Assembly (NCBI GenBank): GCA_025201375.1
Contig: JAIWZP010000038.1
Span: forward strand, 240,668 to 304,667
Direction: 5' to 3'
DNA: 64,000 bases
Origin: Gongronella butleri
Lineage: Eukaryota > Mucoromycota > Mucoromycetes > Mucorales > Cunninghamellaceae
Made by a program: the position numbers and the translations under genes. Positions 20,110 to 63,820 of the stretch are shown piece after piece. Numbering within the stretch: the stretch's first letter is position 1; each line of letters opens with the position of its first letter. Below the pieces are notes generated by a model. It saw nothing but the letters and a program-made list of their open reading frames with translations, was not told the DNA's origin and made no database searches.

Positions 20110-20745
20110 CTTAATACGTGGTTGTGAAAAGGGGTGCAGTCGCGGATTTGAAAACAGCGAAAAGTTTGGTCTCAGATCGCCACGCCATTCACACAAATGG
20201 TAAACACTCATGTTTAACCGATGGAAATGCAATAAAACGCTGGGGTGAATAGACTAGTTTTGGCGTAATATGTAATTTGCTTCTTTTTTTCGCCACAAGG
20301 CCAGGTTTACGAAAAATGGTCACATTGCCATGAAACAAACACCATCAGAAAGAATATGGATCGCTGCGTATTGGACATTGGTGATCGATGAAAAAAGTGA
20401 TTTTCGGCATTTTTGACACGGTTTCAAAATCATATATATTTTTCGACGCGTGATAAAGCGCGTCAAACGCCGATATATACGCGCCAGTTCCTTTTCAAAT
20501 CCATACATCTGGCGTCCCTCTTGCTAATAGACGCGTCGGCGCGGCTTTACAAGCGCGTTTTTCCTGCGCAATTCGCAGTTGAAATAAATCCTAAAATCGC
20601 TCATTGCTCGTCAACGACCAGGTGGATCCCGCTCATTTTGGGCATTTTCCGTGGTTTCTCCATGCGATGCCTCTTGTGTGTAAGTTTAGCACAATTCTGG
20701 AGACCTGATTTTTCAATTTTGGTTTTGGCGACTCGCCACAGCGAA
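20110..20745 (+). repeat. Dispersed repeat, family 1, copy A
   Basis: Matches, in inverted orientation, copies at 52240-53010 and 60105-60800. Shared landmarks in this orientation are GGGGTGCAGTCG.GGATTTGAAAAC, GCCATTCA, GATGAAACA..CAC-like, GCTGCGTAT, GGTGATC, ACGGTTTCAAAATCAT, GACGCGTGATAAAGCGCGTC, the AATCGCTCATTGCTCG block and GGAGACCTGATTTTTCAATTTTGG. Nothing in it codes clearly. 19450-20110 and 20750-21440 hold AT-rich sequence without a recognised gene. Confidence 0.6.
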
Positions 20746-21491
20746 TTTTTTTTTTTTGTTTTTTTTTTTTTTTTGCAAATGGTGCACCCCATGACCTTTA
20801 TCGGCCGCAACTAAGGACCAATAGGGGTTTCTTGGTCTCCATTTCATGTTGAGACGCGTTTCATCGCGTGGCAGTGTAGGATATCGTTGGTGAGCTGCAA
20901 GCAGACTTCCCTCCGAACATGACCACCATATAACATCCTTTTGTATAAACTTGTCTGCGTGATCCAAAATTTGGTCCAAAAGAATGCATTGATTACAAGG
21001 TTTTAATGGCCATCAGCCAGTGCAATTCTTTGACTAAAGTATCAAAAATATGGATTTTTTAATTGATTTGCCTCCTTTGATGCAATTTCACTGGTGAGAA
21101 GTTTGTTATTTTGGCATCAGATTCAAACCTTGCGATAGCCGAGTTTGAACTACAACAATTTCAAGCACCTGTCTTGTTCATCACGCGAAAATCTCCAAAA
21201 AAAAAGCACATTGATGAGATTTCATCGGAGTCTAACCAGAACCGGAATCATACCAAAGACAAGTATCATATTTTTTAATGCTTTGCCGCTCTCTCGTTCC
21301 TTTGGGTTCTGGGAATCATGGCATGTCATACAGCATGTGCTTTGCCCTTGAACAACGCAATTTTTTCGTTTTTCGTTTTTTTTTCTTTTTGTGTCTTTGC
21401 ATCCGTTTGAAACAAAAGCATGCCCAAAGTCAGGTGGCGAATGAGAATATGTTTTATTCATGCGTAATAGATATCAATAAAAGGGGGTGAG

Positions 21492-42900: not shown

Positions 42901-42963
<63 letters not shown>

Positions 42964-48960: not shown

Positions 48961-51900
48961 CTAGCGGTTGTTGTCAAGCGAGAATATCAAGGTTGAATTT
49001 TTTTGTACTGCATGATAATGTTTGAAACAAGCCGTTGCGCATCGCTCGGCTTTGCCGGGCTGAGATAGTGTAAAATTACAGTATCTCTGTGCGCGTCTCT
49101 TTTTTCCACCACTTTTTTTTTAAGTTTTCAGACTGACCGAATCTCAAGTTGACGCGCCAAGGCCGAAATTGTGAATTTATGGGAGGATACCGGTATCGTC
49201 GACTTTCTCGACAACGGCCTGCTGATTTGCATGCGGTTTTCACGTCATTTCTGCAAACCAGGAGGCAAACTATCCTTGAATGAAAAAAAGTTTCCTGACG
49301 CTGAGGTCACTCTTTGGTGTGCCGTGTCGATTATCAAAATCGCGATTTATCTGCGATATCATATTCAAAGGAAGTCAGTCATCAGCCATTTTCAAATGGT
49401 GAAATTTCGGTCCTCAGATCACCTCCCATACAATAGCATGGTGAACACACGCCATTTACTGTACTAACAAAAATTCATTCAAATACTGCGGTTCATTGTC
49501 TGATTTTTGCGGGAAATGAAGTCAAATGCGCTTTCCTTTGGTTTTCAACTTAGTAAGGCAATCTCGACGAAGACTATTGTCCACAGCGCCTTGAAATGCA
49601 ATCATCAGAAAGAGCACGATCTGCTACGCTTGTGGCTAAGGGTGATCCAAGGGAAAATTGAGTTTCCGCGGATTGGCATGATTGCAAAAAGAAGCCAAGT
49701 TTTTGCGACGCGTGATTACTCGCGTTACATTCACGATACTGTATTCGCCCCCGGCCCTTATTAAATTCACGATCACAGAGCGCGTTTCGCAAATGAACGC
49801 GTTGGAGGGCCTTGATGGCGCGATTTCGCCGAGCCATTCGCATGCAAAGAAAATGATAAAATCGGTCATTGATCCTCAACGAACAGATGGATCCCTCTCG
49901 TTTTCAACATTTTCGTAGTTATTCCACCCGGGCTCTGTCGCGTGCAAGTTTTGGCAGCATTTCGAAGACTTGCTTTTTCAATTTCAGATTTGGGCTCGAC
50001 ATGGCTCATCTTTGGTATACCTGTGTTGCGTCCCCAGAGATTTTTTAGCGGACGCTAGACAATCCTGTTCAATTTCTAGCTCGCCGATTCTAGTTGAGAC
50101 GTGTTTCGAGTGGTTACAGTGTCTGCTTGACGAGTTTAAAAATGATCACGCTTGAAAATGACAATTTATTAGTTTTCTCCTGATGATCTTGTCCATCATG
50201 TCCCAAATTTGAAAGAGATGCAGGTTGTGATACTGGGATCTCAACTTTATTGGGCCGCTCTTTCGAAATTGGGCCAGCGTGCCTGGAATTGAGTCAAGTG
50301 CTGCCAATTTGAGCCATGAGCTGCAAAAAGCGTGTGATTGATCGCCGTCGCTTTGAAGGCGAAAGGTTCGAAAATATAAATGTACCGGCTATCAGTGTTC
50401 ATCGGCGCGCCTCACAATTATTTTGAGCGCGCAAATTAAAAATGAGGCATACCTGTGCGCGAAAGCAAAGAAAATCCAGGCAATCCTACATTTGTTCTTG
50501 ACAATAAATGGCTCATTATGATGTAGAAAACCGAGCTCTTTCGAATGAGCCATTGCTCGAGCGTCTACGTTGCCAGCAGTGTCGAGAAAATAGTGATTTT
50601 TGACAAGGGTACACTCAAGATGGCCAAAATGGGAAAATCAAAGCGCTCCAAATGCTTTCCTATTTCGTTTGACCCATGACAGGGTACAAAGAAAAACGAA
50701 CGATCACGGTGTCAGCGACCGACGTCGGCACGGCCATTGGGCTGTAAAAGTCGACTGTTTTTGAAAAGGTCTCGTTTTGGTGCAAGGCAGCAAGGACGGA
50801 GTTGGCGAAAACGCGTCGCAGTGTCCGCAAAATTGATTCCGCAGCGAGAACACGACACGACGCGTGTATCCGTCATGGAGATCGTAAGGGATTTGCAATT
50901 TTATTTGTTTTAGGTAGTAAAGTTCGTTCTAAGCTCTCTCGTGCCCGCCGAGGTTACAATGCATGACAGATGGTGGGATGGCAAGATGGTGCCGCATACA
51001 CGCTGTTAATCTTGCAAAGTGTGAAAAACACGCGTGTTGCTCCGTTTTTGTCGTGCCTCACAGGCTCAGGCAAGGTGACATGAACTCTCGGGTCACCAGA
51101 GGCTGGAAAAGGGTGGCAGTGCGCGTAACTCAAGTTTTAACCCTGATGGAGCCCGGCTAACAAGGCTGCCTCCCCTGCCTTTTTTTTTTTTTTTTTTTTG
51201 GTCGTTTGGGCTGCCTTTTCTTTCACATTCTGGTGCAACACAGCTTTTTTATGCGGCTCTCAGGGAGCACTCTCAACTCAAAAAAAAAAAAAAAAAGCAA
51301 AAGAGGCAGCACGACACCAAGTCCCAATAAACCTCTTTTTCGGCGCCAAATCCTGTCCTGTCCCTTATTTTCCTTGGATCAACGGGGACCACTGCATGAA
51401 TCAAATGCACTCGCCTCACAGCAGAATTGAAAACTGCTTTTGGATTATTTCTAAGCGGCTCGTGCGAGTCGCGACTCTCTTTTTGTTTCCCGGTGGTGAT
51501 TGAAAATGTACTTTTGCAGCAGCCGTACGTTCCCCCGGCGGCAAATCAAGTCAGTAATGATCATGAATGACTGGATCTCTCTCAGCCCGCCAATGCCAGT
51601 AACACGACCAATTCGGCGTCCGACTGCGCCTGGTAAAGAGCATGATCGCACAACAGGCACGCTTCTACAGTAATTGCGATTGACGCGTGCCGCTGGTTGT
51701 TTTTTTTAAAAAAAAAAAATGATGATATCCTTCATTTGTCGCTCGTTTTTTATTTTTAATGCGCGTCGACAGCAAAGAAATGGGGAAACCTATTGTTCGG
51801 TGGACGTTGAAAAGCTTATTCCACATCTCAATGATTCAGGGGATGGATGACCTGGTGTTTTTTTTATTATCTTTGGTGTGAGTTGCCATTGATTTTACCT

Positions 51901-52239: not shown

Positions 52240-53010
52240 GGCAATGTACCAAAAGTGACAAGCCAGAAACATCCAATGGGTCTCAATTTGAAGCTGTTTA
52301 CAGCCAAGCGGGCGCGCCACGCATAAATCAAAAAAATCAGCCGTGATGATCTCGAAAAGCAAAATCCAAAAATGAGGTCTCCAGAATTTGACCAAACTCT
52401 CGCACAAGACACATTGCATGACAAAACGACGAAAAAATGGCAAGAAAGAGGCAATCCATTTGTGGAGTCTCGAGCAATGAACGATTTTCGATTTATTTCA
52501 AACGCGAATTGCTTGGGAAAAACACGTCCATAGATCCACGCCGACACATTCAATAGCAAGACAGATGCCAGTTGCATATATTTGATAGGTAACAGACGCG
52601 TGCAACTTGACATCTGACGCGGTTTATCACGCGCTGAAATACGTTATGATTTTGAAACCGTGTCATACACGCTAAAAAATCACTTTATTCAATGATCACC
52701 AATATTCACATACGCAGCAAGCCATTCTCTTTCTGATGATGCGTGTTTCATCAAAATACTCGCACTTTTCGTCGAGATGGTCTTGGGCCGAAAAAAGACC
52801 AAAATCGCATTTTACGCAGAAACCAGTCGGTGAGCCCATGGATTTTAGTTGATTTTCGTCCGTGAAGTATGCGCACCATATGGTTGAATGGCGCGGCGAT
52901 CCGACGTCCTAAATGTCTCAGTTTTCAAATCCTCGACTGCACCCCTTGGAAAATAGGTGATTTCAAAATGTCGTCTTTGCACGCAATCTAGTGATCTTTG
53001 ATTTCCGGTC
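52240..53010 (-). repeat. Dispersed repeat, family 1, copy B
   Basis: Same orientation as copy C (60105-60800) and inverted relative to copy A. Shared with C: GAGCAATnnnCGATTTTCGAT, GCGAATTGCnnGGGnAAA, ACAGACGCGTG, GATCACCnATATTnnCATACGC, AGCnAGCCAT, TGATGCGTGTTTCATCAA, CACCATATGGT, GGCGCGGnGATCnGACG and CCnCTTGGAAAAT. It lies 3.7 kb left of the Fanzor start. Confidence 0.65.
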
Positions 53011-53520: not shown

Positions 53521-54302
53521 CAATTGTGATCTTGCTGTGGGGCGTTGATGGGGTTCTCGCTTGAGATGAGCCATTGATTCATCTGACAGAATTGCGAATT
53601 TAGTAAAATGAGACATCGAGGGCCTATTGTATCCATTGCAACGGGCTTACCAATAATTGATGCTTCTGAAATTTGCAAATGGACAATTGTATTCCAAAAA
53701 AAAGAGATTACTATATGACACTGGCTGCTTTGCCGTCCAGAGCGGTTGCCTTTGACCCTATTTTGAATTGCTTACTTCATTTAGAGATAATCTGGCGTAC
53801 CGGGGATGTCGCTTTCGTCTTTCGTGTTCACGCTGATAGGGAAAAATTAATTTTTTTCGCCATGACGGTCGACTTTGTGTCATACCTTCATAAATTCACG
53901 GCATTGTGTCGTTGATTGCCCCATGGTCACTGGCCGGAACTCAGCAAGTTCCTCCTGCGGCGGCTGTTCAGGCTGTTGTGGCGGCTGTTGTGGCTGTTCA
54001 ATCTGTTGTTGCGGCTGTTGCGGCTGTTCGGTCTGATGTGGTGGCTGTTGTTGCAGCTGTTGCGGCTGTTCAGACTGTTGCGGCTGTTCAGGCTGTTGTG
54101 GCCGCTGTTCAGGCTGTTGTGGCTGCTGTTCAGGCTGTTGTGGTTGCTGTTCAGGCTGTTGTGGCTGCTGTCGCGGCTGTCGCGGCTGTTGTGGCGGCTG
54201 TTGCGGCTGTCGCGGCTGTTGTGGCGGCTGTTGCGGCCGCTGCGCGTGTCGTCTGCCAGTTGATAAATTAATACGCCGGCGACGCGGTTGATGAGGCTCC
54301 AT
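53521..54302 (-). CDS. Q/P-rich basic protein, paralog of the gene at 62.0 kb
   Basis: Exon 1 (about 53887-54302) encodes MEPHQPRRRRINLSTGRRHA followed by about 90 residues of Gln/Pro repeats, then EELAEFRPVTMGQSTTQ, ending at a good donor (AAG|GTATGA). Two small downstream exons are proposed: about 15 bp after TTTGCAAATTTCAG, and MNQWLISSENPINAPQQDHN after TTCTGTCAG, ending at a TGA at 53521-53523. The N-terminal RRRInLSTGRRH motif matches RRRISLSTGRRH of the gene at 62037. A 17-bp upstream element is also shared. The exon 1 call is good; the later exons are tentative. It is probably a nuclear, nucleic-acid-binding protein (inference from basic plus Q-rich composition). Confidence 0.5.
53935..54240 (-). 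repeat. Imperfect GGCTGTTGT repeat (Q/P codons)
   Basis: About 30 imperfect units of 9-12 bp on the plus strand (GGCTGTTGCGGCTGTTC and variants), read on the minus strand as CAGCAGCCG-type codons. It lies inside the Q/P-rich gene. Confidence 0.85.
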
Positions 54303-54385
54303 GAGAGAAAGGGTAGTAAACAGAGAAAACGACAGAAGAAAGAGCGAGCAACAAGGAGCAGAGCGACGCGTAACTTAATAATAAA

Positions 54386-55179: not shown

Positions 55180-56043
55180 CTATTCAGCTGTATCCATGAG
55201 CAATGCCATTTCATCGAAGATTTCGTCCCGGATTTGACCAAAAACGTGATTCCAGCAGTGTAGAGTCATCTGTTTCATCTGGAGGCGGCTCAATCGATGG
55301 CGTTTCACGGCAGCAGCGATACCAGCATATCCGCCATGAAGTTCAAGCGCGCGTCTCTTGGCCTCGGACTCCTTCATCTTGAAAATGGTCGCATCGCTGC
55401 CGGGATATTGACGGCAAGGTCTGACACGGATGCGTGCTGGATTGCTTTGATCGTGATAAATTTGCGCCATTTCTTGTTGGTTGATTTGAAAAGCCAACTT
55501 GTCAGCAATCTCGTTGCTCGACATAAAGGAGGATTTCGGCAGCCCAAGCGGCTTCAGACGCTCGTTTCGTGTCATGTTCAGGCGGCAGGCATGGCAAAGA
55601 TACTCCTCGTCACCGTTCTCGTACGCGACGTTGATGACGCCACGATGATGGGGCACATGGACACAGTGAATTTGGCGCCGCGCGCCAAAAATGTCAAAGA
55701 TGCGGTCGATGGTGCCGTCGCCTTGTTCGTTTTGTTGATTGTCGGCTGCCTGCTCAGGTAGCTCCTCATCCGTCATGTCGCAGCATCTGTTGCATACACC
55801 AAACACGCGAAGCAGAAAATTGACCTGCCAGAGGGTCGTCTTATTGAGATTCGCCTGGTCATTGGGGTTGTCAGGGTCGTGGAACGTCAGCACGTGCGCG
55901 CCCGTCAGCAAATGCGGATATCGGTCCAACACACGCTGTTGCAAGAGCACCTGGACCTCGTTTTGCAGACGATGCGCATCGTTGCTTAAAATAGCAAGCA
56001 TCGTGCTGAGAGTAGGCCCAGCTCGACGATGTTCGTAATCCAT
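55180..56043 (-). CDS. 287-aa Cys-containing protein, divergent from the Fanzor, unrecognised
   Basis: A single-exon protein starting MDYEHRRAGPTLSTM. Cysteines occur as CNRCC (about residue 84), IHCVHVPHHRG, and EEYLCHACRLN, so a treble-clef or zinc-ribbon-like site made of C/C...C..H/H...C..C is plausible. The C-terminal half is helical and basic (ESEAKRRALELHGGYAGIAA, VKRHRLSRLQMKQM), which could be a DNA-binding region, and ends in an acidic amphipathic helix. It shares a 690-bp divergent intergenic region with the Fanzor gene. I do not recognise the family. Its high-quality open frame and codon use argue it is real. A role linked to the Fanzor rests only on position. Confidence 0.7.
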   Translation of the reverse strand: MDYEHRRAGPTLSTMLAILSNDAHRLQNEVQVLLQQRVLDRYPHLLTGAHVLTFHDPDNPNDQANLNKTTLWQVNFLLRVFGVCNRCCDMTDEELPEQAADNQQNEQGDGTIDRIFDIFGARRQIHCVHVPHHRGVINVAYENGDEEYLCHACRLNMTRNERLKPLGLPKSSFMSSNEIADKLAFQINQQEMAQIYHDQSNPARIRVRPCRQYPGSDATIFKMKESEAKRRALELHGGYAGIAAAVKRHRLSRLQMKQMTLHCWNHVFGQIRDEIFDEMALLMDTAE

Positions 56044-56733: not shown

Positions 56734-59034
56734 ATGGCCCACATCCCTATCAATCATCGTGTTATTCGAAGCATTAACTTTGACGACGACCAGCCCGCTC
56801 AGTACATGTCGGTGAAAACCTGCATCTTGTCTGCCGGCTTGCGGGATGATGTCGTTGAAATTCTGCAAATGTACGTCCTTTTCATGAACAACGTCATTTT
56901 CCACGCCCATCAAGCACTGAAGTATGTTTTCCTGCGCTTGTTCGACCTATATGGCGACGGCATGTTCATCTTTGACGAGCAGCTTCGCCATCCGGACATG
57001 GCGACGCTGCTAAGGACGAAAGCATTCATCCAGGCTGTGGTGCAATATCTTGCCAGCCAAAGCGCTCACAGTCCAGCACCCAGGATCGTGCCCAGCCTGG
57101 TGGGCTTACTTGACGAATACAAGATCAGGAGTGGTTTTGCAAGCGCTCGATTTCCCGGCACGTCGGTCACACAATCCGCCACGTACGCAGCCAACCAGAT
57201 CCACGCCGCGTACCTCAACAACATCCAAGCGAATTTTGAAGATCGGGTCTTGTACCTCTTGAATCAAATCTTCAAAGTGAAGCTTGTCCGTCGCCTCCAG
57301 CAAGCAGAAATACGCCTTGGAAACAACAACGTGCTTGACGACGATATGGAAGCCCAGATTCAAGCGACACCGTTTGCCCAGCTCATCAAGCGCTTGAAGA
57401 CGCAAATTGGGTATCGCCGTCCTCAATTTGGCTTGGACCAGACGATCCAGGACATCATCCAAGGACTTCCGCAAGCTTGTACGGAGCCGTTCCGCGTTGA
57501 ATTGTACACCAATGGCCTTACATTCGTAAATCAGCTGCGCGACAATTTGGAGACGCGAAATCCGGTTGGTGGCAACTATTTTGCAGACGTGAGGCGGCAT
57601 CCAGAGCACTATATCAACACGTTCTATTGGCTCAGTCGTTTCTTTGCCGACAACGAGGCACCGCACGCCCAAAATGACCAACATCAGCAGCAAGGGCAAG
57701 GGCAAGGACATGCAGGGCGCCGTCAGCTGCGTCGGCAGGGTCTTGGGCAGCAACAATTACAACAGCAGGATACGAGTCAGTTCTACAAGCTCTTCAATTG
57801 GTACCCGCTGAGAAGATCCTGGGTGCCGTCGGCGGTGCAAGTGGACACGATGATCCTCGCCAAGTGCATCCTTCCCAATGTCGTGTATCGTAACAATCAC
57901 AATGGCCTGACACTTGAGGAGTACAAGTTTCAATTGTGGAGCCTGGCTGCCAATTTGACAAATGCGATCTGGCAGGCGGAAGGAACACCTGATGATCATG
58001 GAGTGCCTCAGGCATGGCCGCATGCCAACGACCAATGGCGGCGCTTCTGCTTCCGGGGCACCATTTTCACCGATGGCGCGAGTCTGTCCGTGTTGAAGGT
58101 CACCAGAGACACCAATGCGTCGCAGCCACGTCGGCCTTTTGTGCCTGCGCAACGCGAAACTCGGTATATTACAGAGCTCACGGACCAAGAAAAAGCGGCC
58201 ATTTTGCAAAATATGGCGGATCACCCGGATACCGCGCCTGTGGTGTATGTCGATTGCGGTCGGCGCGACCTGATGTATGCCATGGCGCACGACAGCACGC
58301 GGAACAACCGGCGCACTTTCATCTACACACAAGCGCAGCGACGCAACGAGCTTGGGCGCACGCGTCAAAGAGACTTGTTGTTCGAGACGGACTCGGGTCT
58401 CATGGCGGGTGTCACTGCAGCGCAATTGCAAGACGTCCTGGCTGCTCAGCAGCGCCTGAGCACATTGACAGCAAAGACGCAAAATCTAGGCGACTATATT
58501 GCATACCTTGGCCAACAATCTCTCGAGGCAGACACGCTGCATGCGTGGTATGCATTGCGCAGCACGCGGGATCGCAGTCCTGGCGAGCGTCACCCATTGC
58601 CGCTATATCGAAAGCTTCGGTTCGACAGCTACATTGCCCACCAACAGTCGGACAGCCGTCTTGCAAGGTCAATCCGTGCCAAATTTGGTAACGAAGCTGT
58701 CCTCGTCATGGGCAACTGGGGTGCTCCAATGATGCGAAACCAAGAACCCATCCGAGGCCTCGGTTTGCGACGCATGCTGAAGAAAAAGGGGTTCACGGTG
58801 TTTTTGATCGACGAGTTTCGCACGAGCAAAATCTGCCCCAATTGTCTGAGCGAGCCCGAAAATGAACGACAAGGAGTGGCTCTTTTTGGACTGTTGCAAC
58901 ATGACCCGCAGCAGATCGAGAACCCGCGCCCTTGGAAGTCCAATCTTGTGACGGTGTGGGGCAAATTGATGTAAAAACTCCATCCCTTGCGGAAAAAAAA
59001 AAAAGATAAGTATGGTATTAATTTTTTTTTCTTT

Positions 59035-59086
<52 letters not shown>

Positions 59087-59228
59087 CTGCCAACGTTGTC
59101 AAGTGCCGCAGAATCGTGATACTCTGGCTTGTCGCAACATGGTGACGATCGGCAACGCCGTTTTGATGAACGAGGCCATTCCAGCCGAATTCCAACGACC
59201 AACCCCCCAATTCCCGCCCAACTTGTAG
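56734..59228 (+). CDS. Fanzor-like RNA-guided nuclease (eukaryotic TnpB/OrfB homolog)
   Basis: Two exons (56734-58970, 59087-59228) give 792 aa. The C-terminal half has the RuvC core of Fanzor/TnpB: motif I VVYVDCGRRDLMY (D507); motif II block AVLVMGNWGAPMMRNQEP, then GFTVFLIDEFRTSKICPNC (E694); motif III NRDTLACRNM (D757). The zinc ribbon is C701/C704 and C747/C750, and the single intron falls between the two Cys pairs. Splicing restores WGKLICQRCQ, which matches the family GlLrCxxC pattern. The N-terminal 500 residues are helical, with a Q/G-rich insert near residues 311-348. All three acidic residues are present, so it is probably active. Family members cut DNA guided by an omega-RNA usually encoded near the ORF's 3' end. 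The start chosen is MAHIPINHRV. Neighbouring genes encode small putative DNA-binding proteins. Confidence 0.88.
59037..59084 (+). repeat. 48-base poly(T) in the Fanzor intron
   Basis: An uninterrupted T run directly before the AG acceptor (TTTTAG|C). An A run at 58993-59004 sits in the same 116-bp intron. It is an extreme version of the local intron style. Confidence 0.9.
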
Positions 59229-59468: not shown

Positions 59469-61849
59469 CCCGCCTGCACCATGGCCAAGTGCTTTGCAAG
59501 TGACACGTGTGCTCTTTTCTCGCCATTGTAACGATGTTTGGGTGGAATAAATGCAACGAGGGGCATCTGAAGTCATAGTAAAAAAAAACCAATCCATTAT
59601 TGATAGAAAAAATGGTTTGCTTTGACTCGTTTTTGGTCAAAAAAATTAATGCACGCGGACTTTTGTCTTTCGGCCATTTCGGTCATTTGCTGGGCAAATA
59701 ACATCACCAATTGTCGCTTGGAACCTCTCAAATGAATCAGCGAGACCATGGCGGTAACAAGTCAATTTGTCCCCCAAGCCAACCTTTTTGTGATCTCTGC
59801 ACGCTTTGTCATCAAAACTGTATTTTAATCGAGTGGCACAAATTGAATCCGAGGATGCCACTAGCCTATGCCGACAAAATGTTGATGTGGATGAAATCCT
59901 GTGCCAAAGTACCCACCCTTGCAAATTTGGGTACCTTAGGGACAAGTTGAATGGGAATTGCTTAGACAATCGTAATTTTTAAGAGAAACAATAATGGCAG
60001 CTCACCAACGAGACACTGCAAGGGCCCAAAATGCATCCCATCGTGAAACGGTGCGCTGAAAACCTGATCGGGACGCGACACCCAAGCATGTCACTCATCA
60101 TTGAAGCTCTGCATCTGCAAATCAAAATTTAGTCGTGGCGAGCGTCCAAAACCAAAATCGAAAAATTGGGTTCCCGGAATTGCGCCAAACTCGCACACAA
60201 GATGAACACATGAAGAAACCACGAAAAACAACAAAAAGGAGGTCGATCCAATTGCTCGTTGGCGAGCAATCGGTGATTTTCGATTAAATTTCAACTGCGA
60301 ATTGCACGGGGGAAATCCGCTGATAGTGCCGCGCCGACGCGTCCAATGGCAAGAGGGACACCAGGTGCATTGATTTGAAAAGGAACAGACGCGTGTCACT
60401 CGACGCTTGACGCGTGTTTTCACGCGTCGAAAATTGTCTATAATTCTAAAACCGCGTCAAACATGCCCAAAAATGTCAATTTTTCAGAGATCACCGATAT
60501 TACCATACGCAGCGAGCCATGCTCTTGCTAATGATGCGTGTTTCATCAATATGCAGGTACTTTTCGTAAAGATAGCCTTGTAGCGTAAAAACGATGCAAA
60601 TTGCATATTACGCGACAACCAGTTAATAGACCTCCAGGTTTCAATGCTTTTTTACCGGTAAATAACAGATCTTTCACCATATGGTGGGATTGGCGCGGTG
60701 ATCTGACGACCAAAATTTCACCATTTTCCCGAGGTCGACTATACCTCTTGGAAAATCCGTGGTTTTTGAGAATGGACCTTGCGCGCCATCCAGTGGTAAT
60801 AGCGCGCCCATGGTAGGCTCATTTGAAGGAGAAATCGTGGAATTCGCAGATACAGTCAGCTAATTTTCTAGTAGATTGTAAAAGGATGGGCAAAAAGCCA
60901 AAATACAATAAAAATGTTTGAATTGAAAATTTCTCGACAACGGCCTGATCGATCGCCAGTTTCTCGGCACAGCATGCACCGGTAACACATGTTCTATGCA
61001 TATGGAATTAGTTTGATGCGTATTTGATCACGAGTTGCTTGGCAATGAGCCTGTCTAAACTTCAAAACGTTCCAATTCGAGATTGCTCTCGCTACAGTGG
61101 TCGGCATTCTGTCAAATTTGAATCGGTTGTCCTTTACAGACATCGAAAGCGATACCAAGCTAAAAGGTTTTAATTATTGCATTGGAAAAGAAAACGACCG
61201 ACAAAAACCCACAATTGCAGAATATATTGTATTGCAGCATGATCCGTGAATGTTGACCCGCGGATAAATGATATTGCTTGATGGACGCAAAAGATAAAAA
61301 AAAAATAGACTCGAACTCCATGTCAATAGGTAAAGGCAGAAAAAAGGCAAACAAAGTAAACAGCCGTAATGCGTGTTTTCGTTTATTTGTACAATGACAC
61401 TCGCAAGCTGGACGACCGGAAACATGATCAGCATGCACAATGTGAAAAGTCCAACGTTGCATATCGGGATCCAATGAGTACAATGCCGCCAAAGAGAGAA
61501 AAATTAGAAAACCCAAACCATTTTACTTTTTTTTTTTGCCATCTTTAGCCGGTTGAGCCGTGATCAACAGGCCGCTGAGCAAAATAAATCACACAATGAC
61601 ACATTGCCAGAGCTCCCCACTTTGGTGTACACAAGGTTCAGGGGTGAACGGCTATCAAAGTAGAATGCGGACGCATTTTTGACCAAAAACGAGTCAAAAC
61701 AATTCATTTTTCTACCAATACTGAATTGGTTGTTCTACACAATGATTTTGAATGCCCCTCGTTGCATTTATTCCTGCAAAAATCGTCGCAATCGCGAGAA
61801 AAGAGCACCTGCGTCACTTGCAAAGCATTTGGCCACGCTGTAGGCGGGT
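59469..61849. mobile_element. 2.4-kb non-coding element with 190-bp inverted ends
   Basis: 59469-59658 is an imperfect inverted copy of 61668-61849. On comparing the left arm with the reverse complement of the right arm, shared blocks in order are CCCGCCT, TGGCCAA, TGCTTTGCAAGTGAC, GTGCTCTTTTCTCGC, GGAATAAATGCAACGAGGGG, TTGATAGAAAAA-like and TTTGACTCGTTTTTGGTCAA. The interior has no convincing gene and includes a family 1 repeat (60105-60800). The structure fits a non-autonomous DNA transposon or a nested insertion. No clean target-site duplication was seen next to the arms. It begins 240 bp after the Fanzor stop and ends 187 bp before the Q-rich gene start. Confidence 0.6.
60105..60800 (-). 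repeat. Dispersed repeat, family 1, copy C
   Basis: Longest clear match is to copy B (52240-53010) in the same orientation. Copy A (20110-20745) is inverted. Blocks include CCAAAACCAAAATCGAAAAA, GGAATTGCGCCAAACTCGCA, GTTGGCGAGCAATCGGTGAT, ATTGCACGGGGGAAAT, GAACAGACGCGTG and TAATGATGCGTGTTTCATCA. Confidence 0.65.
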
Positions 61850-61944: not shown

Positions 61945-62036
61945 AATCCATGAAAAAATGATATCATACGCGTCAATGTCTTCTCGCTCGTTCTTTTTTT
62001 TTTTTTTTTACTCTTCACCATCTCATCCCGAACAAA

Positions 62037-62849
62037 ATGCAAGCTCGCCGGCGTATTTCCTTGTCAACTGGTCGCCGACACCAGCCACAGCCACAGCCAC
62101 AGCCACAACAGCCACAACAGCCACAGCCACAGCAACAGCAACAGCAACCGCAACCGCAACCGCAACAGCAACGGCAACGGCAACAGCAACAGCAACAGCA
62201 ACCACGTCCACAGCGGCGACGACAACAAGGTCCACAGCAGCAACACCAACAGCTGTACAGATCCGCATTTGAGATTTTTTGTGCTGATAATCCGCAATTG
62301 AACAATGACCAAGCTCAAAACACATGGTCGCGCTGCGACAACAACGACCTCATTGGCAATGAGACCGCCCAACAGCTCCGCGAGCGCTATCACGGGCTTG
62401 CAAACAACGAATACAACGCGTATGTGCAGCGGATTGAAGGGTCGCACGCATCCAAAATTTCTGTGCCCGATCGAAATCCATTCTAGCACCAGACCCAACC
62501 TCTCTCTCTCTCTTTTTTTTTTTTTTTTTTCTCTTTCTCACTTTCTCGCACGCCCAATAAAAGCCATGGACCGGAGCTCCAAAATTGTCACGTCTCATAT
62601 GATGCTACTTTTTATGTCTTTTCGTGTCAATCCGAAGCGCAGCACGCTGACGCTGATGGACAAGGACAAGAGGATAATGGCAAGAGCACATGGCATGATA
62701 CCACAGAACCTGTTTCCGCCCTGCCGCACGTTTATCATCCGTCGGTCGCACTGGAAACAAACACCAATGGCTATTTTTATGCTTTTGACGGCGCCCTTTC
62801 ACCACACACGCACACACACACAAAAGGATGTGCCTTTTTGCATCAATGA
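62037..62849 (+). CDS. Q-rich basic protein with HMG-box-like segment, paralog of the 53.5-kb gene
   Basis: Exon 1 (62037-62440) encodes MQARRRISLSTGRRHQPQPQ, a long Q/P/R tract, then an HMG-like stretch (YRSAFEIFCADNPQLNN, ETAQQLRERYHGLANNEYNA, YVQRIEG). A donor GG|GTCGCA and an acceptor after a long T-rich tract (AAAAG at 62563) join in phase to exon 2 (62564-62849). Exon 2 reads HGPELQNCHVSYDATFYVFS and ends near YFYAFDGALSPHTHTHTKG, for 229 aa in total. If unspliced, exon 1 ends at a TAG at 62484. The AF.IFC...W...L.ERY..L..NEYNAY spacing resembles a divergent HMG box, a DNA-bending domain. The HMG call is tentative; the paralogy with the 53.5-kb gene is firm for the N-terminus and upstream region. 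Confidence 0.5.
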
Positions 62850-62921: not shown

Positions 62922-63176
62922 CTAGCGCTGACCATAAAACATGTCCCACAGACGATTGAACGTTGCCGATTCGTCGGCTTTTTCGTTGTGGTCGCCAATG
63001 GCATCCACTGTGCCGTCATGGTGGGCTTTTTCAACGAAAATCAGAAATTCCTGAAGATGATGTGGGAGGTCAGGCGGCAATGGGCGAGCAGGGGCATTTG
63101 GGCGCGTCACAGGACCGCGCACGCGGCGACGCTTGATTTTTCGCTTTGGATGAACTGGATTGACAGCACGTTTCAT
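62922..63176 (-). CDS. Small basic 84-aa protein, unrecognised
   Basis: A single open frame starting MKRAVNPVHPKRKIKRRRVR, a strong nuclear-localisation-like or nucleic-acid-binding stretch. It is followed by PNAPARPLPPDLPHHLQEFL and an amphipathic C-terminus ending LWDMFYGQR. Composition (Arg/Lys/Pro, few rare residues) favours this frame over the overlapping plus-strand one. It is convergent with the Q-rich gene and divergent from the HMG-like gene. The family is not recognised. Confidence 0.45.
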   Translation of the reverse strand: MKRAVNPVHPKRKIKRRRVRGPVTRPNAPARPLPPDLPHHLQEFLIFVEKAHHDGTVDAIGDHNEKADESATFNRLWDMFYGQR

Positions 63177-63424: not shown

Positions 63425-63820
63425 ATGAATCAAGCAGCAAATCAAGATGGCGCTGGAAATCAAGCTCAAGGACGCGGAGGGCGGGGTCGAGGTCAAGCTC
63501 GAGGCAGAGGGCGTGGCCGTGGCCGTGGCCGGGATCAAGAACGACGTGCAGCGGCCCAGGCTGCCGTAGACGCACAAACGAACCGAGCATTGGATGCATT
63601 GCAGCAGCAAGTCCAGCATGTGGTGCGTCCGCCACCCATGCCCCCATTTGCCCTTTATTGCCAGCACCGCATGCGAGAGGACGTCTACATCACCACAGCC
63701 GACCTCCGTCAGGAATGGCGCCAGCTGGAGGCACCTCAGTTGGACGAGTATCTTCAGCAAGCAGACGCAATCAACCGTGCGTACGAGGACAGCATTATAG
63801 AATTTCGTAGGCTGCAATAA
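63425..63820 (+). CDS. HMG-box-like protein with RG-rich N-terminus
   Basis: A single-exon 131-aa protein. The N-terminus has RGG/RGRG repeats (GRGGRGRGQARGRGRGRGRG), which often bind RNA. A helical linker follows (AAAQAAVDAQTNRALDALQQ). The last 65 residues fit an HMG box: PPMPPFALYCQHRMREDVYI, then TTADLRQEWRQLEAPQLDEY, with the Pro, aromatic, W and Y positions expected in helices 1-3. HMG boxes bend DNA non-specifically or at specific sites. Its place in the Fanzor neighbourhood next to another HMG-like gene suggests a shared element or locus (inference). Confidence 0.65.
   Translation: MNQAANQDGAGNQAQGRGGRGRGQARGRGRGRGRGRDQERRAAAQAAVDAQTNRALDALQQQVQHVVRPPPMPPFALYCQHRMREDVYITTADLRQEWRQLEAPQLDEYLQQADAINRAYEDSIIEFRRLQ

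Follow-up and report, generated by a model that had tools for sequence, protein, structure and literature searches.

Fanzors are eukaryotic cousins of the CRISPR DNA-cutting enzymes, that is, TnpB-derived RNA-guided DNA nucleases of a family carried by mobile DNA. A gene of this kind lies on the plus strand of the stretch of Gongronella butleri DNA analysed here (hereafter the window; 64,000 nt, G000:C43:240668-304667, at the right end of its contig), and an intron with a long run of T splits its zinc ribbon. The locus raises two questions, namely whether the gene encodes an intact nuclease, and whether splicing of this intron could serve as an on/off control of nuclease activity, both of which had been proposed in a first-pass annotation. 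Judged by its sequence, the gene belongs to Fanzor1 as a new and apparently intact member, and its inherited intron looks, on comparison with related copies, like an old and ordinary one rather than a switch.

Structure of the Gene

Joining positions 56734-58970 and 59087-59228 gives a reading frame of 2379 nt (792 aa plus stop). The start codon at 56734 is backed by the paralogs, whose own starts align with it; the frame is also open further upstream. Exon 1 (56734..58970, plus strand) covers the N-terminal half, RuvC-I, RuvC-II, and the first CXXC pair of the zinc ribbon, while exon 2 (59087..59228, plus strand) covers the second CXXC pair, the NRD motif with the last catalytic Asp, and the C-terminus. 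The two are separated by a 116-bp intron of spliceosomal type (58971..59086, plus strand; GT-AG, with GTAAAA at the 5′ end and TTTTAG at the 3′ end), which interrupts, in phase 2, the codon that immediately precedes the third zinc Cys. It contains a run of 48 T (59037..59084, plus strand) before the acceptor AG, a length that is subject to the uncertainty of homopolymers in assemblies.

In the translated frame, the catalytic positions are D507 of RuvC-I within a DCG motif (58252..58254), E694 of RuvC-II, the alternative Glu (58813..58815), and D757 of RuvC-III within NRD (59118..59120), all on the plus strand; all three are also placed by the alignment of the family profile. The four zinc Cys are found in two CXXC pairs on the same strand, residues 701-704 (58834..58845) and 747-750 (59088..59099). 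The residues, the cysteines, and the intron between the two pairs are thus as the first-pass annotation had described them. The same is true of the predicted product of unspliced RNA: retention of the intron leads to an immediate stop (ATG TAA, 58969-58974, with the stop codon 58972-58974 inside the intron) and a protein of 746 aa that lacks both the second Cys pair and D757. One protein database entry, P0001, is this truncated 746-aa form.

Identity as a Fanzor1 Protein

Searched against PDB, the window protein alone retrieved two sequences, the Fanzor1 of Parasitella (E 2.6e-44) and that of Spizellomyces (1.9e-15). A family profile was built from five proteins (those of the window, of the paralogous loci C32 and C2, and the database proteins P0002 and P0003); it matched PpFz1 (3.2e-100), SpuFz1 (4.6e-59), and GtFz1 of Guillardia (6.7e-20), with an alignment that runs through exon 2, which agrees with the family name given at first pass. 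The Pfam family PF07282, a C4 zinc ribbon between RuvC-II and RuvC-III, scores 26.7 bits in the spliced protein (cut-off 26.3) and 16.8 bits, below that cut-off, in exon 1 alone. A chance match is excluded by the PDB E-values of the single protein and of the profile, together with a PF07282 domain that is reached only after splicing.

D507, E694, and D757 align with chain residues 777, 935, and 1000 of SpuFz1, which correspond to D383, E541, and D606 at a constant offset of 394; E541, D383, N385, and D606 are the metal-binding residues of SpuFz1 in the part of PMC10432273 drawn on here. The three positions are invariant in all five aligned proteins, as is T446-D447-G448, the TDG motif of the WED domain named in an excerpt of PMC10711439. 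The AlphaFold model, made for the 746-aa exon-1 protein, has a pLDDT of 32.9 alone and 33.8 with two relatives, and D757 lies outside it; convergence of the three acidic residues is predicted from alignment to solved structures.

Another excerpt of PMC10711439 gives two fingerprints of Fanzors, a nearly exclusive DPG motif and an alternative Glu placed six residues ahead of the zinc finger. The latter is present as E694, at that distance from C701, while RuvC-I reads DCG in the window, C32, and C2 proteins in place of DPG. This is a variant rather than a ground for exclusion from Fanzor1, since DPG is said in that excerpt to occur only 'near exclusively' and SpuFz1 itself has DPN.

A tree with eight rows placed the proteins of the window, C32, and C2 in one group (bootstrap 91, SH-aLRT 99) and did not resolve the place of this group among other Fanzor1 proteins. 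The second Cys pair takes the form CX2C in the proteins of the window and C32 and CX4C in C2, P0002, P0003, and PpFz1, so that CX2C looks, in this set of sequences, like the derived state. With regard to more distant relatives, a protein search with the window protein returned the gene itself, P0002, and P0003, and a search with the family profile (E up to 1e-5) returned only P0001, each among the best 8000 candidates by shared words. When viral contigs were scanned with the family profile, 101 pattern matches came up, none of which was confirmed as a relative.

Paralogs in the Genome

A protein search of the 33-Mb assembly (110 contigs) yielded 11 matches at six loci, the window (on C43), C32, C2, C67, C82, and C50. 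Three of them are full-length, namely the window gene, C32 (743 aa), and C2 (745 aa), and the C82, C67, and C50 copies are partial or broken. The window gene is single-copy; its nearest paralogs, C32 and C2, share 47% aa identity with it, and silent sites are saturated in this comparison. C32 and C2 are 91.5% identical to each other at the aa level and are under purifying selection (dS 0.196, dN 0.041, dN/dS 0.21). Their second exons give a pN/pS of 0.16, a value that is based on only 5 and 3 changes and includes a few intron codons. The C67 relic has a DPG motif and 29-34% identity across the matched part, and a change of frame upstream leaves it broken as it stands.

A genome search with PF07282 found 20 places, two of which are C32 and C2; the window gene, in which the intron splits the domain, is missing from this list. 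The 18 further places (on C100, C15, C1, C47, C16, C75, C55, C39, and others), 16 of them with E 2.2e-8 or better, belong to another Fanzor family of this genome, larger than that of the window gene. The best eight of the 18 (L001-L008) have the same RuvC and zinc-ribbon layout with the alternative Glu as the window gene. In these eight, however, the zinc ribbon is uninterrupted in every case (within one frame) and DPG is present in seven by the pattern used, whereas the window gene has DCG and a split ribbon.

Comparison with Known Fanzors

The best solved match of the window protein is Parasitella parasitica Fanzor1 (PpFz1; PDB 9cf0-9cf3). The TDG motif, IDEFRTS-x-x-C, the NPRP motif, and NRD are common to both, whereas PpFz1 differs in its DPG motif, its CX4C second Cys pair, and an insertion before NRD. 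About 100 residues of PpFz1 (chain 991-1093) have no counterpart in the window protein. A RuvC insertion domain has been described in PMC11423790, and by our own placement this segment probably lies in the region of that domain.

Spizellomyces punctatus Fanzor1 (SpuFz1; PDB 8gkh) shares the catalytic D383/E541/D606, as aligned above, and differs at RuvC-I (DPN in place of DCG). According to excerpts of PMC10432273 and PMC3627910, one ORF encodes the whole of SpuFz1, within an element that has inverted repeats and an omega-RNA downstream; the window gene, in contrast, has an intron, and neither inverted repeats around the gene nor an omega-RNA was found. Fanzor1 genes within mobile elements are also known from Mucor, Rhizopus, and Phycomyces (Bao and Jurka 2013, PMC3627910, in the part used). 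The resemblance is that these, too, are fungal Fanzor1 genes, whereas the MuDr-type ends and the Crypton/Harbinger associations given for them in that part were not seen here in limited searches.

Repeats and Linked Genes

A high-copy DNA repeat (59469..61848) whose inverted ends measure about 175 bp begins 240 bp downstream of the Fanzor stop codon. It is not specific to Fanzor, with at least 59 matched pieces in the genome when 40 of 1091 candidates were scored. Fanzor as cargo of this element was ruled out, as the ends of the element do not span the gene and the window has no further copy of them to the left of the gene. Internal pieces of the same repeat family were observed at 52325-52993 (71%) and 20161-20750 (75%), the former 3.7 kb upstream of the gene. 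No long inverted ends enclosing the gene were found between 55000 and 62000 among the 25 longest of 129 pairs. Another repeat of 430-460 bp, located downstream of C32 and C2, was considered as a guide-RNA 'ghost' element and rejected, since it is spread widely (at least 43 matches, with 40 of 192 candidates scored); in the window only pieces of it (<100 bp) occur, at 49121-49219 and 7.5 kb away from the gene.

Two neighbours of the window gene have relatives near its paralogs. The divergent neighbour (55180..56043, minus strand) encodes a Cys-rich protein of 287 aa with no Pfam family above cut-off, whose other genome matches are confined to C32:237886-238635 and C2:478363-479112, about 10 kb from the paralogs. 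It thus has three genome matches (E <= 0.001), all at full-length Fanzor loci, with 29% identity to its relative over 256 columns; a protein search for distant relatives found only itself. On the other side, a 131-aa HMG-box-like protein (63425..63820, plus strand) has five genome matches including itself, two of them with stops (E <= 0.001), the others being found only near the C32 and C2 Fanzor copies. Its name is tentative and is taken from the C32 relative, which reaches 22.0 bits where the Pfam cut-off is 25.4; the window member has no HMG match. In addition, an 84-aa protein (62922..63176, minus strand) is weakly like a protein of C32 and C2 (41% over 51 columns), and a genome search with it at E <= 1 returned only itself. 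Two Q-rich ORFs that flank the Fanzor locus (53880-54374, minus strand, and 61962-62486, plus strand) were noted to have an N-terminal RRRI(N/S)LSTGRRH stretch in common. An SHD1 domain, a match to the fungal Zn2Cys6 family that stays below threshold, the introns of the host genes, and the best solved relative of the Fanzor all suggest a fungal genome.

The surroundings of the two paralogs, C32:228383-250705 and C2:473397-492071, are one duplicated unit of 19-22 kb that aligns in six blocks at 93-96% identity. Outside these six, two blocks on the left side (79-83%) and pieces of repeats still align, and the ends of the unit are not sharp because the alignments continue. No inverted repeats were found at the unit ends. 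A six-frame Pfam scan of the C32 unit recognised no transposase, a weak negative, as the HMG match of C32 was also missed there. The C32 unit encodes as well a 101-aa protein (L042:8920-9222, that is, C32:243419-243721, minus strand) whose matches are confined to the C32 and C2 units and which has no Pfam match; its pN/pS is low, 0.14 over 129 codons of open frame, with only 4 and 2 changes, and by eye it has the look of a histone fold. The C82 relic (L022:3139-6450) sits in a stretch of 2.9 kb by which a copy of the dispersed 430-460 bp repeat is interrupted; this speaks for past movement of the C82 Fanzor copy, at least. The ends of this insertion can nearly be read off from the interrupted repeat.

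The Intron and Alternative Explanations

An intron at the same position and in the same phase is present in all four loci of this genome that keep that part of the gene (window, C32, C2, and C67); the C82 and C50 copies do not extend this far. In both C32 and C2 the intron measures 60 bp, is GT-AG, and lies in the same codon and phase, without a long T run; in the C67 relic it has a length of about 80 bp and contains 10 T in a row. In P0002 and P0003, the reading frame is continuous at the intron site. As position and phase are shared among the paralogs, the intron is older than the paralog split, and the run of 48 T is private to the window copy among the four introns compared. T-rich introns also occur in ordinary genes of the window: that of DnaJ measures 101 bp and combines an A run with T13 ahead of AG, and that of a PI3/PI4-kinase gene measures 110 bp and has T19. 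Among the T runs of at least 15 in the window, an AG within 14 nt plus an upstream GT(A/G) accompanies 7 of 22 on the plus strand and 4 of 7 on the minus strand, and such runs are not enriched before AG against a background of 48% (AG alone). In the absence of this enrichment, we only infer that the 48-T run works as a pyrimidine tract; most simply, it is a private expansion of that tract.

Introns in Fanzor genes are reportedly described in the 2023 Science Advances survey by Jiang et al. A literature search on Fanzor, TnpB, or OrfB_Zn_ribbon together with introns gave no title about introns in Fanzor genes, and the word 'intron' is absent from the main text of PMC11423790, PMC10432273, PMC3627910, and PMC10711439.

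Taken together, the evidence makes it highly probable that the locus is a Fanzor1 nuclease gene with one old and ordinary intron, constitutively spliced to a 792-aa protein for omega-RNA-guided cutting. The reading frame, the motif residues, the homology to solved Fanzor1, the conserved intron position, and the purifying selection on two paralogs were observed directly. In the proposed mechanism, the gene would be expressed as a pre-mRNA with one old spliceosomal intron in the codon before the third zinc Cys, constitutive splicing would give the 792-aa protein, and a RuvC site made up of D507, E694, and D757 together with the TNB zinc ribbon would then cut DNA chosen by an omega-RNA. Regulated retention of the T-rich intron as a means of turning nuclease activity off, the view taken at first pass, is very improbable. 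It draws on the loss of the second CXXC and D757 from the 746-aa product and on the length of the T run, the second longest single-base run in the window. Any spliceosomal intron ahead of essential codons yields a dead product on retention, however, and that loss is therefore no evidence for control; moreover, C32 and C2 have the same intron without the long T run, the DnaJ and PI3/PI4-kinase genes carry similar T-rich introns, and the intron region folds, as RNA, with no greater stability than shuffled sequences (z 0.26). The longest single-base run in the window is one of 55 A at 42902, and the four further runs of at least 25 are all T. Still a little less credible is a natural nuclease-dead Fanzor, in which the retained form (746 aa, no RuvC-III) would bind guide RNA and DNA and the length of the T run would tune the ratio of cutter to binder; if so, one gene would provide both a cutter and an RNA-guided DNA binder.

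It is also unlikely, if less so, that the gene is a non-functional relic whose frame is intact by chance and which has had no working guide RNA since the repeat inserted downstream. The description of the gene as showing no decay holds for the coding sequence and not for its surroundings, where a single-copy gene is followed 240 bp past its stop by the high-copy inverted-repeat element; this repeat may have displaced or broken an omega-RNA. The searches for such an RNA likewise favour a relic: Rfam gave no match, the lowest z among seven folded stretches was -1.34 (0.35 and 0.12 for the window flank, no better than shuffles), and a scan of four 3′ flank stretches gave no window hit with z below -2. 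The sole hit below -2, in L021, was set aside, as it was not repeated in L020. The DCG motif counts for a relic as well, but it is common to C32 and C2, which are under selection. Also against a relic, the 792-aa frame and all catalytic and zinc residues are kept at 47% identity to the paralogs, which requires long selection in the lineage. Alongside the preferred reading of a constitutively spliced nuclease gene, it is possible, at somewhat less than even chances, that Fanzor is part of a mobile multi-gene element, traveling with the Cys-rich and HMG-box-like genes, with the C32/C2 unit as a second version. The restriction of genome-wide matches of both partner genes to the three full-length Fanzor loci suggests such a shared element, and the near-identity of the C32/C2 unit and the C82 insertion are in line with it. 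On the other hand, linkage has been seen twice independently and not three times, since C32 and C2 copy one event; segmental duplication explains this pair equally well. In addition, gene order is not the same in the window and C32, the unit ends are blurred, and terminal inverted repeats and a recognised transposase (a weak negative) are lacking.

Implications

Of the findings at this locus, the DCG motif and the linked genes most deserve further work. As an apparently intact Fanzor1 with an unusual active-site motif, the window protein could usefully be compared, in its biochemistry, with the Fanzor1 enzymes of solved structure. If the Cys-rich and HMG-box-like genes prove to form a mobile unit with it, they would be Fanzor partner genes of a kind not met in the portions of PMC11423790, PMC10432273, PMC3627910, and PMC10711439 consulted. 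Finally, since one Fanzor lineage keeps this intron and the eight members fetched from the second family lack it, the two can be compared within one genome for the way in which such genes adapt to eukaryotes.
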